From Desulfovibrio sp. (GTDB lineage Bacteria; Desulfobacterota; Desulfovibrionia; Desulfovibrionales; Desulfovibrionaceae): a stretch of DNA of 64,000 bases. Shown one piece after another: positions 1,028 through 52,764 of the stretch. The stretch is from NCBI GenBank assembly GCA_031279825.1, contig JAITHT010000090.1, positions 1 to 64,000 of the forward strand, given 5' to 3'. The notes beneath the pieces are model-generated. The model searched no databases, was not told the origin of the DNA, and worked only from the letters and a program-made list of their open reading frames with translations. How positions within the stretch are numbered: the stretch's first letter is position 1; the number at the start of each line of letters is the position of its first letter. Both the position numbers and the translations under genes were made by a program.

Positions 1028-1264
1028 CATCAGAACTTCCTTTGTGGTCTGAAATCCCGGCCGCAAGGCCATATAGCCCCGACCCCGCCCTGAAGGGCTT
1101 CGGTTTTTTTCCCGGAAAGGACGCAGCCGGGCTTTTGCCCGGCGCGGACTGGGGGGCATGGGGGGCGCGAGTCCCACAGTCTGAGCTGAAAGCTCGGGAG
1201 GGGGCCAAACCCCTCCCAAGCGCGAGACGCGGAGGCCCGAAGGGCTTCGCTGCCTTATTTGGAT
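1028..1264 (-). repeat. Structured start/stop-codon repeat, copy 1 (long form)
   Basis: 237-bp copy on the minus strand. Its upstream end overlaps the 3' end of clpB: the final Ser-Lys codons and TAA stop of ClpB (1255-1263) fall in the repeat motif ATCCAAATGAGG, here ATCCAAATAAGG. Its downstream end is AAAGGAAGTTCTGATG (ATG at 1030-1028). It contains the CTTGGGAGGGG / CCCCTCCCGAG hairpin and the extra module with the GCCGGGC-AAAA-GCCCGGC hairpin shared only with copy 7. The gene beyond it is convergent, so only a 20-codon frame (1030 to 968) follows the ATG. Confidence 0.92.
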
Positions 1265-5058: not shown

Positions 5059-5227
5059 ATCCAAATGAGGTAGCGACGCCCTTCATGGCTTCGCGTCTCG
5101 CGCTCGGGAGGGGTCCCAACCCCTCCCGAGCTATTCCGCCCCGGAAAGAAACCGAAGCCCTTCAGGGCGGGGTCGGGGCTATATGGCCTTGCGGCCGGGG
5201 TTTCAGACCACAAAGGAAGTTCTGATG
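5059..5227 (+). repeat. Structured start-codon repeat, copy 2 (standard form)
   Basis: 169-bp plus-strand copy that runs from ATCCAAATGAGG to AAAGGAAGTTCTGATG. The terminal ATG (5225-5227) is the probable start codon of the deacetylase gene and AAGGAAG (5213-5219) its ribosome site. The central CTCGGGAGGGG / CCCCTCCCGAG 11-bp hairpin is perfect. The first hairpin (GCCCTTCATGGC) is degraded relative to other copies. It fills most of the 322-bp space between cbpA and the deacetylase. Confidence 0.93.
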
Positions 5228-21724: not shown

Positions 21725-22663
21725 CTACCCTGTTTTTGCATCGCCCCTTCCCGCTTCCGGCGCGTCCGGACGCTCCGTCGCATACCACCAACGGGCGCGC
21801 CGGAGCACATCGGACAATCCTCCTCCTTCCACCAGATCCAGAAACAGGCGGAAGGTGTGTATCGCGTCTCCCGTCATGGGATTGGCCGCGGTAACTCCTT
21901 GAAACATATCGCCGTCTTCCGTCAGGAGCTTGCGCGCGCCTTCCAGCCTGCGCCGGAATGACGGAGTGAGAAAGGGGAGCACATCGTCGCGCCGGGCCAG
22001 GGAGGCAAGGTAGGCCGCGCTGGAAATAAAATTCAGCCCCTGGACAAAAGCGACGCCGCGATCGTGTTCTTCCGCCGTGGTGCGGAAGACGCGACAGCCG
22101 AAACCGGCGTACAGGTCTTCCACCAGCCGGATATGCGCTTCGCCGGCCCGACGGCCGGGAGTGACGGCTACCGCCAGATCTTCCGGCGCCGGATTGGGGC
22201 CGAACAGAGGGTGCGTGCCCACTACAGGCCCGCGGTGCGCCGCTTCCATCGCTTCCATGGGCAGCATCTTTACCGAAGTGATGTCAAAAAGAATCTGCCC
22301 GGGGTCAAGGGCGGAGGCCAGGTCATCCAGCAGTCCGGACAGCGCTTTGGCCGGCACGCACAAGGCCACGGCATGAGCGCCGCGCACGGCTTCCGCCAGG
22401 GTATGCGGGGAAGGGGCGGAGCCGCGTAGTGTCGTATGCCCGACGAACGGCGCCGCATGAGACAAGGGGGGAGGGCATGGTCGGGCAGCCTCCCGATCCG
22501 CTCCGCGCACCTCGTATCCGGCGTTACGCCAGCGTTGAGCAAGCATGGCGCCCATACGCCCGAGGTGACCGATCAGGGTGATACGCAAAGGAGAAGGCCC
22601 CGCGCCCCCCCCGTCCGGAAGCGGCGTATCTTTTTTCGTATCCCCGGCGTATCGGCCGTTCAT
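21725..22663 (-). CDS. tyrA: Prephenate dehydrogenase (tyrosine biosynthesis)
   Basis: 312-residue NAD(P)-dependent enzyme converting prephenate to 4-hydroxyphenylpyruvate. The Rossmann motif is IGHLGRMGAM with GHLGRMG as the dinucleotide loop. The prephenate-binding region shows VVGTHPLFGPNP, and the helical C-terminal dimerisation domain follows. There is no chorismate mutase domain. Start codon and ribosome site (AAAGGAAG) lie in repeat copy 3; an upstream in-frame ATG would only add repeat-encoded residues. It directly follows aroA, with the repeat as the entire spacer. Confidence 0.88.
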   Translation of the reverse strand: MNGRYAGDTKKDTPLPDGGGAGPSPLRITLIGHLGRMGAMLAQRWRNAGYEVRGADREAARPCPPPLSHAAPFVGHTTLRGSAPSPHTLAEAVRGAHAVALCVPAKALSGLLDDLASALDPGQILFDITSVKMLPMEAMEAAHRGPVVGTHPLFGPNPAPEDLAVAVTPGRRAGEAHIRLVEDLYAGFGCRVFRTTAEEHDRGVAFVQGLNFISSAAYLASLARRDDVLPFLTPSFRRRLEGARKLLTEDGDMFQGVTAANPMTGDAIHTFRLFLDLVEGGGLSDVLRRARWWYATERPDAPEAGRGDAKTG

Positions 22664-22829
22664 CAGAACTTCCTTTGTGGTCTGAGACCCCGGCCGAAAG
22701 GCCGGATATAGCCCCGACCCCGCCATGAAGGGCGGGGTTTCTTTCCGGGGCGGAAAGCTGGGGAGGGGTAAAAAAACCTCCCGAGCGCGAGACGCGAAGC
22801 CCTGAAGGGCTTCGCTACCTCATTTGGAT
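22661..22829 (-). repeat. Structured start/stop-codon repeat, copy 3 (standard form)
   Basis: 169-bp minus-strand copy that forms the whole aroA-tyrA junction. Its first bases (ATCCAAATGAGG) encode the end of AroA (Ser-Lys and the TGA stop, 22820-22828). Its last bases are the tyrA ribosome site and ATG (22663-22661). It keeps the CTCGGGAGG hairpin (one mismatch) and the GGCC-TTTC-GGCC hairpin. This is the clearest case of the element acting as a complete intercistronic unit. Confidence 0.95.
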
Positions 22830-27929: not shown

Positions 27930-28019
27930 CATCAGAACTTCCTTTGTGGTCTGAAACCCCGGCCGCAAGGCCATATAGCCCCGACCCCGCCCTGAAGGGC
28001 TTTGCTACCTCATTTGGAT
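27930..28019 (-). repeat. Structured repeat, copy 4 (90-bp deletion form)
   Basis: It keeps both ends (ATCCAAATGAGG and AAAGGAAGTTCTGATG) but lacks the central hairpin. The junction lies at GCCCTTCAGGG, which occurs twice in full-length copies, so it looks like a simple deletion between direct repeats. It lies tail to tail between the chemoreceptor and DUF4130 genes and no gene starts at its ATG. Confidence 0.9.
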
Positions 28020-30209: not shown

Positions 30210-30376
30210 TATCAGAACTTTCTTTGTGGTCTGAGACCCCGGCCGAAAGGCCATATAGCCCCGACCCAGCCATGAAGGGCTTCGGTTTCTTTCCGGGGAG
30301 GAAGCTTGGGAGGGGTTTGGACCCCACCCAAGCGCGAGACGCGAAACCCTGAAGGGCTTCGCTACCTCATTTGGAT
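30210..30376 (-). repeat. Structured repeat, copy 5 (start codon mutated)
   Basis: 167-bp minus-strand copy. The terminal ATG is ATA here and the ribosome motif is AAAGAAAG, so translation initiation at the end is probably lost. It keeps the hairpin as CTTGGGTGGGG / CCCCTCCCAAG: relative to copy 2 both arms changed C-G to T-A, a compensatory pair. It sits upstream of the radical SAM gene in a 487-bp gap that holds nothing else recognisable except AT-rich sequence at 30425-30540. Confidence 0.9.
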
Positions 30377-34199: not shown

Positions 34200-34368
34200 C
34201 ATCAGAACTTCCTTTGTGGTCTGAAACCCTGGCCGAAAGGGCATATAGCCCCGACTTAAGCCCTGAAGGGCTTCGGTTTCTTTCCGGGGCGGAAAGCTCG
34301 GGAGGGGTAAAAAATCCTCCCGAGCGCGAGACGCGAAGCCCTAAGGGGATTCGCTACCTCATTTGGAT
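34200..34368 (-). repeat. Structured repeat, copy 6 (standard form), upstream of dnaK
   Basis: 169-bp minus-strand copy with intact ends. Its ATG (34202-34200) opens a 66-codon frame that ends at 34002, overlapping the dnaK start codon by 22 bp. The CTCGGGAGGATTTTTTACCC hairpin is retained. Located 177 bp upstream of dnaK, so it probably sits in the dnaK leader or promoter region. Confidence 0.92.
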
Positions 34369-42857: not shown

Positions 42858-43212
42858 GCTGATTCTCTCCCGGAAGTGACCTGACGATATTTCCTCAGAA
42901 GTCATTCCATAATTCACTATGAAATGAAATCACCTGCAGGACGTGTTAACACTATAGAATTTTTGTTCTCCGGCAAGGAAGATGAGTCTGCCATGAGGGA
43001 ATATACTTTTACGGTATTTGACCGGGATGGCGGACACAATCTGACGCGGCCGGAGGGCAAAAAGGCATAGCGTTAACATGCCTTGGCCCTGGCGTAAAAT
43101 GTGCTGGCGAGACGGCTTGCGCAAATCATTTCAAAAGCGTATGGTAATCGCGCTCCCGACGCCGCACCTGAACGCGGCGCGAGTTGCGCGGAGCAAGTTC
43201 AAGGAGAGAGGT
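42858..43212. other. Intergenic region before the FmdB-type gene
   Basis: 355 bp. A 25-codon frame (42993-43070, beginning MREYTFTVFDRDGG) has a distant AAGGAAG but no recognisable homology; I do not call it. No clear promoter or terminator is visible. Confidence 0.4.
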
Positions 43213-50232: not shown

Positions 50233-50467
50233 ATCCAAATGAGGTGGCGAAGCCCTTCAGGACTTCGCGTCTCGCGTTTGGGAGGGTTTTTTACCCCTCC
50301 CGAGCTTTCCGCTCAGACTGTGGGGCTAGCGCCCCCATGCCCCCGGTCCGCGCCGGGCAAAAGCCCGGCTGCGTCCTTCCCGGAAAGAAACCGGAGTCCT
50401 TCAGGGCTTAAGTCGGGGCTATATGGCCTTGCGGCCGGGGTTTCAAACCACAAAGGAAGTTCTGATG
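50233..50467 (+). repeat. Structured start-codon repeat, copy 7 (long form)
   Basis: 235-bp plus-strand copy that begins ATCCAAATGAGG and ends AAAGGAAGTTCTGATG. Its ATG (50465-50467) is the argJ start. It carries the same extra module as copy 1 (hairpins GGGGCTAGCGCCCC and GCCGGGC-AAAA-GCCCGGC). It fills the glnS-argJ gap except for 74 bp. Confidence 0.94.
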
Positions 50468-52313: not shown

Positions 52314-52336
52314 CCGTTATCAGGAGAAAGGCAGCT

Positions 52337-52513
52337 TACCCTGGAGCGCACGTGGCGGCTGTCGTCGCTGGCCTCACAAGTATCAAGTCAAGGGATATGT
52401 CCGCAATTCGGTGTGCAAGCCCGGCATGACCGGGAAGCCTTAAGGTTGTCCAATATCCCACCGTAGGAGATAGAGGTCCTGCGGGAGGATAGCCGCACGG
52501 CCCGTCCGGGGTA
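52337..52513 (+). ncRNA. ssrS: 6S RNA (RNA polymerase regulator)
   Basis: The ~177-nt segment starts TACCCTGGA and ends TCCGGGGTA, which pair as a closing stem. Internal complementary stretches give the long, bulged rod typical of 6S RNA. A T-run (CTTTTTT) follows for termination. Position between zapA and a division/RNA gene (here rny) is the conserved genomic place of ssrS. The RNA binds sigma-70 holoenzyme as a promoter mimic. There is no coding potential in the region. Confidence 0.78.
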
Positions 52514-52764
52514 CTTTCTCTTTTTTCATACGCTCCCAGAATGATAGTCATTTCCGGGGACCATCGCTCTCTGCTTTTCCCTGCGATGCCTTGCGTTGTC
52601 CGGGAAAAAGCGGGCATTTTTATTGTGTCTTGCGGCGCAACGCGTTGATCGCGTACCGCGTTTTACGGGTTCGAACGCCGAAAGGCCGGCGGGCGGTCCA
52701 CATCGCGACAGAGCGTTTCTTCACAGGCGCGTCGGCACACCTGGTTGTCCTTTTTGAGGTTATC

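Follow-up and report, generated by a model that had tools for sequence, protein, structure and literature searches.

Why a repeat should lie exactly between two genes, with the stop codon of the first in one of its ends and the start codon of the second directly beside the other, is the question raised by the aroA-tyrA junction of a gut Desulfovibrio genome. The original prediction was made from the window, which is the whole stretch of DNA analyzed and 64 kb in length. It described seven near-identical copies of the repeat and proposed that they supply the stop codon of one gene as well as the ribosome site and the start codon of the next. Both end motifs and all seven copies were found where they had been predicted (237, 169, 169, 90, 167, 169 and 235 bp) and far above chance expectation. 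In the window, the AAAGGAAGTTCTGATG end gave 9 matches with at most 3 mismatches, where 0.43 would be expected by chance; for the ATCCAAATGAGG end there were 7 with at most 1 mismatch (0.32 expected). Not all copies are alike in length, and size classes of about 62, 90, 165-169 and 232-237 bp differ by internal hairpin modules.

The copy between aroA and tyrA occupies 22664..22829 on the minus strand, with the left (A) end at 22829, the right (B) end at 22664 and the target ATG(A) at 22663-22660. The TGA stop codon of aroA comes from the A end (22820..22822, minus strand; ..R-A-Ser-Lys-stop), and the aroA genes of relatives end a few residues past the point where this stop sits. A Shine-Dalgarno sequence of the B end, AAAGGAAG (22669..22676, minus strand), is located 5 nt 5' of the tyrA ATG. 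The ATG itself (22661..22663, minus strand) is native to tyrA; it is the insertion target and lies outside the element. Of what had been ascribed to this copy, the stop and the ribosome site are its own, but the start codon is not.

A second gene is closed by the copy at 1031..1264 (minus strand, 237-bp class, a length taken over from the predicted coordinates with the ATG counted in). Its A end provides the TAA stop of clpB (1255-1257), preceded by Ser-Lys as in aroA, and its ATG starts no gene. On the plus strand, the copy at 5059..5224 (169-bp class) precedes a polysaccharide-deacetylase-type gene (ATG 5225) and the copy at 50233..50464 (235-bp class) precedes argJ (ATG 50465). A gene for 6S RNA is located at 52335-52516 of the window. 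The remaining three copies, all on the minus strand, start no gene: 27933..28019 (90-bp class), 30213..30376 (167-bp class, with its ends altered to AAAGAAAG..ATA) and 34203..34368 (169-bp class). In total, three of the seven right ends start genes (the deacetylase at 5225, tyrA at 22663 and argJ at 50465) and two of the seven left ends close them (clpB and aroA); the gene identities were confirmed by NCBIfam. The predicted C-terminal Ser-Lys and stop were seen in both clpB and aroA, and the repeat thus does supply a stop codon in some of its copies.

The genome as a whole (a 2.2-Mb assembly of 94 contigs, approximately 83% complete, in which many contigs terminate within the repeat) contained at least 72 left ends and at least 72 right ends, and about 70 copies of the repeat. 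The consensus is ATCCAAATGAGGTAGCGAAGC for the left end (A) and CAGACCACAAAGGAAGTTCTG for the right end (B). Fifty-six copies were paired from A to B with full sequence and fell into classes of ~62, 88-94, 154-169 and 232-237 bp, which differ by entire internal hairpin modules. Nearly all copies carry GTAG at the 5' foot of the hairpin of the A end (..GGTAG-CGAAGCCC TTCA GGGCTTCG), as do those of the relative G009. The same repeat is present in the Desulfovibrio MAG record JAITGC01 (Pc512_bin104), where one copy shares the right flank. We consider it quite probable that the repeat is mobile: a short element without coding capacity, built of several hairpins, that inserts directly 5' of ATGA (TCAT on the opposite strand), leaves no target duplication and carries its own Shine-Dalgarno sequence. 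An identity as integron attC is unlikely, because the copies are dispersed singly.

To which side of the border the ATG belongs could be decided from the flanks. An ATG was present at 65 of the 72 right ends, which would also be found if the ATG were part of the element and the element had made new start codons at random places. However, the next base, outside such an element, is fixed as well: in the 72 copies it is either A (93%) or C (7%), and G or T do not occur there. We looked for unoccupied sites by joining the left and right flanks of copies and searching the joined sequence against the genome and the DNA of relatives. In all eight comparisons obtained, the left flank runs straight into a pre-existing ATG(A/C), and no base is duplicated or lost. 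For copy L048:3015, the unoccupied version of the site lies in a second repeat of palindromic form and matches at 97.6% along 84 nt that span the joint (CATAATTCACT/ATGCAATGACTTCT; here and below a slash without spaces marks the joint). The occupied site L037:13952-14118 has an unoccupied paralogue in the window (42938..43055, plus strand), with 94% over 118 nt and the joint GTCTGCC/ATGAGGGAA (GATGAGTCTGCC/ATGAGGGAATA), and a further one in L039 (93%). An unoccupied tusA site was found in two related species (G008 and G012, AAGGAGAGCGCC/ATGAGC), and relatives also have unoccupied sites at dnaE and at the gene of an ACT-domain protein. Two more lie inside a third repeat, and one copy of the element is nested in another copy (GCC/ATGAAGGGC). 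Since the relatives share 60-80% protein identity, most unoccupied sites at gene starts were compared at the protein level only.

Judged from these eight comparisons, ATG(A/C) is the insertion target and not part of the element, and insertion appears to leave no target duplication. This refutes the predicted role of the repeat's own ATG as a start codon and, together with orthologues that start at the same ATG, makes an element that brings its ATG along virtually untenable. The left flank shows no conserved position among the copies of the genome. Targets of the type ATGC and ATCA are rare, and the latter show that a DNA tetranucleotide is recognized rather than a start codon. As the first two bases of the element are AT, which is common to both of its ends, a duplication of 2 bp (AT) is indistinguishable from none in this species; the left end of G009 starts with ACC, which speaks against it.

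The second repeat (AGAAGTCATTTCATAATTCACTATGAAATGACTTCT with CCGGACG hairpins) is a near-palindrome and is itself a target of the ATGA element. It was located at L014:258-293, L055:354-388 and L037:6675-6709, and its core has 19 matches in the genome. The third repeat (CATACATAGGCCAATGGCCTATGTATGAGG.. with hairpins) was found at L037:6555-6630, at L016:14162-14227 and in the flanks of L010 and L027, and the ATGA element is inserted exactly at its ATGA. The copies at L059:2980-3130 and L037:13952 occupy a related target (ATGAGGGAATA..), and the right end of the former is without its last six bases.

If the target is a tetranucleotide, how often does it coincide with a gene start? With a simple home-made codon-pair model, trained on 290 kb and applied to 429 kb, the ATG at the right end opened a convincing gene in 18 of 72 copies, or in 19 when a 49-residue lipoprotein-like ORF is included. 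For ATGA sites that interrupt no gene (93 starts and 475 intergenic sites) the expectation is 16% (p about 0.003). At about 26-30% versus 16%, the enrichment is a modest one for this genome. The borders of the repeat match translation signals beyond chance, as had been predicted. For dnaE, the ACT gene, ispG, hisC, cstA, argB, argJ and tusA, the alignments with element-free orthologues of the genus begin at the same methionine. None of these eight genes starts elsewhere in the orthologues, and the ATGs are therefore start codons that were present before the element inserted next to them. That the repeat created gene starts can thus be discarded. Nor was insertion found to be directed at gene junctions, since approximately 70% of the copies are located at an ATGA that is no start and some at ATCA. 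In another species, G006 (L138), the start of argB is likewise directly preceded by a diverged right end (CAGACCGCAAAGGAAAAAAG/ATGAAC), which may reflect an independent insertion at this gene.

Several stable hairpins 5' of a ribosome site are also what a regulatory RNA leader or attenuator common to a regulon would show, and an attenuation module had been suggested for the repeat. Our data lend it no support: the genes downstream of the repeat are unrelated and the majority of copies precede no gene at all. Furthermore, no Rfam family was found above its gathering score, compensatory changes were few (2 of 50 pairs) and G-U variants were no commoner than A-C variants (16 vs 21), so that RNA pairing on the strand of the element is not specially kept. 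A common leader is accordingly regarded as very improbable.

What the right end does bring is a ribosome site. The Shine-Dalgarno sequence AAAGGAAG is conserved 5 nt before the target ATG, in agreement with this part of the original prediction. All 19 start copies have it intact, as against 44 of the remaining 53 (about p = 0.05, calculated by hand from the counts). Upon insertion at a start codon, the gene's own ribosome site would be moved ~165 bp away and the Shine-Dalgarno sequence of the element would take its place. At tusA the displaced native sequence (TAAGGAGAGCGCC) is still found left of the element. A displaced native site left of every start copy was considered as well; it was clear in three and weaker in three more of 15 and is not general. 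We infer that ribosomes use the Shine-Dalgarno sequence of the element because of its position, its spacing and the lack of an alternative at essential genes. The genes hit by the element, even the essential dnaE, are apparently still translated, and dnaE, ispG and others would now depend on a ribosome site derived from a transposon. Copies inserted at start codons would be retained by selection for the ribosome site that they carry.

Alternatively, the resemblance to a Shine-Dalgarno sequence might be coincidental, the right end being kept for the mobilizing enzyme and the genes surviving by another start, by reinitiation or by leaderless initiation. The right end is indeed conserved where no gene starts, as the 44 intact of 53 copies show and as a recognition site of an enzyme would be, and such recognition could account for part of the conservation. 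Against coincidence, the native ATG has no other Shine-Dalgarno sequence in reach, and the right end persists in start copies whose left part is gone (cstA, hisC and a cystathionine-type lyase).

Diverged elements of relatives bear on the same point. Within the genus, a degenerate pattern of the right end matched in 11 of 15 genomes, with 2-106 copies in each (reversed control 0), and interiors and left ends differ among these relatives. For elements of the G009 type, with the GTAG hairpin, a gene start lies at 12 of 39 right ends. For a type-2 element (TTTCAATCC..hairpins..CTCCCTGAAGGGAG) this was the case in 24 of 29. The type-2 element is ~175 bp in size, has the same right end and is present in G014, G013, G003 and other members of the genus (e.g. 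L196 and L201). In G015, which belongs to another genus, 53 copies were found with the right end CAGAGGAA-GATAG/ATGA (AGAGGAA-GATAG/ATGA). Among 42 sampled right ends, 40 from G015 and two older ones from the genome studied here, 34 had an ATG at the fixed distance, versus 19% in shuffles, and 29 had A as the next base. The spacer between the Shine-Dalgarno sequence and the ATG varies, being GTTCTG, GCTCAG or ATTTTG in the genus and GATAG in the other genus. Thus, across two genera the Shine-Dalgarno sequence and the ATGA rule persist longer than the sequence that separates them. This retention of site and spacing while the spacer letters change, and the survival of old type-2 elements mainly at gene starts, are hard to reconcile with a coincidental sequence, which we hold to be improbable.

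At the left end, ten genes were found to read into the element, seven of them in the frame A/TCC AAA TGA, stopping at its TGA or TAA. It corresponds to that of a gene with A-TGA as its end at the target. An upstream gene ending within the target ATGA would hence be closed by the left end ATCCAAATGA after two extra codons. Before insertion, aroA-tyrA read GTG CGG GCA TGA / ATG AAC and phoU-phoB read GGC GGA GAA TGA / ATG AAC, each with an ATGA stop/start overlap. In each pair both genes remain complete, the first being extended by Ser-Lys. By means of the Shine-Dalgarno sequence and the left-end stop, insertion would be tolerated even at sites where it would otherwise be lethal. In G009, the stop codon of the left end is not kept (ACCAAGAAGGTAGC), so that the stop function may be fortuitous.

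Based on these findings we lean towards a transposable family that has evolved to be neutral for translation: it would integrate at ATGA, rebuild a Shine-Dalgarno sequence and an in-frame stop with its ends, and could end up as the only ribosome site that an essential gene has. If this is true, such an element can colonize start codons and the stop/start overlaps of operons. Start codons are among the worst landing sites for a transposon, and the combination of an ATGA target with a carried ribosome site would turn them into safe harbours. A natural set of ~19 host genes results within a single genome, all probably translated from one and the same ribosome site of transposon origin, and the old copies are a clear case of retention where an element serves as a ribosome site. 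The coupled pairs aroA-tyrA and phoU-phoB would be split, and genes of operons may be decoupled. For annotation, the element accounts for a class of repeats that lie flush with genes.

Regarding its movement, the element lacks terminal inverted repeats and, apart from the ambiguity of 2 nt, shows no target duplication; only one of its ends is flanked by a conserved 4-nt target. This layout, with its subterminal hairpins and GTAG, matches that of IS200/IS605 elements and REPs (PMC6006769), and the GTAG-tagged hairpin suggests a single-strand transposition like that of REP and IS200. On the bottom strand the element would then read TCAT/CAGAACTTCC...GGAT, and the enzyme would now be absent or unrecognized. 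Unlike IS200/IS605, the repeat is without tnpA or a cognate enzyme (tnpA was in no copy), its target coincides with start codons and it repairs the translation signals that it disrupts. No transposase was located between A and B ends when the unpaired ends and the two Y1 loci of the genome were inspected. Subclass-2.1 Y1 genes are known to be flanked by GGGGACA-like sequence (PMC6006769). The sole intact Y1 gene of the genome (L098:1210-1870, C53; 220 aa) is flanked by GGGGACAT... and GGGGACA-type sequence and by no A or B end. In this it resembles the TIRYT class, and it is unrelated to the repeat.

Movement by other chemistry, that is by a DDE, a DEDD/IS110 or another enzyme with a 2-bp AT duplication and not by a Y1 HUH enzyme, is a possibility that we regard as real though somewhat doubtful. 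The AT at both ends would allow such a duplication, and Y1 genes do not track the copy number: G009 had no Y1 match despite >100 copies. In addition, ATG or GTG precedes the type-2 left end TTTCAATCC in 13 of 17 copies. At this junction a native start may be read into the element and yield a short leader peptide, or 3 bp may have been duplicated. On the other hand, the lack of terminal inverted repeats, the 4-nt target at a single end, and the subterminal hairpins with the GTAG tag at the hairpin foot all follow the IS200/REP layout (PMC6006769), and the left end of G009 is ACC and not AT. IS110 showed no correlation with the copy number of the element among the genomes, and the Y2/IS91 search gave no better match, but carries no weight because its control also matched nowhere. 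With no Y1 in the copy-rich G009 and no better fit of IS110, the enzyme is therefore assigned to neither, and the single-strand mechanism remains the reading suggested by the layout.

ERIC, BOX/RUP, Correia and Rickettsia palindromic elements are likewise short, structured, mobile and present in multiple copies, and they sometimes alter the expression or coding of their neighbours. To our knowledge, none of them combines a start-codon tetranucleotide as target with a ribosome site of its own; their sequences were compared with the repeat by the Rfam scan alone. No report of a bacterial repeat with an ATGA target or its own Shine-Dalgarno sequence was found in the open-access literature. According to Di Nocera 2013 (PMC3733652), ORFs next to REP sequences frequently take their TAG stop from the GTAG termini; starts, initiation and ribosomes are not mentioned there. 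The repeat resembles GTAG REPs and REPINs in the GTAG at the 5' foot of its left-end hairpin, in its many dispersed copies and in two 50-bp A/A dimers, the right end of the main element being unrelated to the left. In its standard form it differs from them as a composite of 90-235 bp that has the GTAG hairpin only once and whose right end is distinct and bears the Shine-Dalgarno sequence, in its fixed ATGA target, in a stop that is mostly a TGA before the GTAG, and in that no RAYT (Y1) gene is linked to it. The two REPIN-like dimers consist of left ends only, arranged head-to-head, and are located at L012:3045-3094 and L052:6054-6103 (C7:37644-37693 and C78:16453-16502). Neither of them lies at an ATGA, and one provides the stop of a MiaB-like gene.
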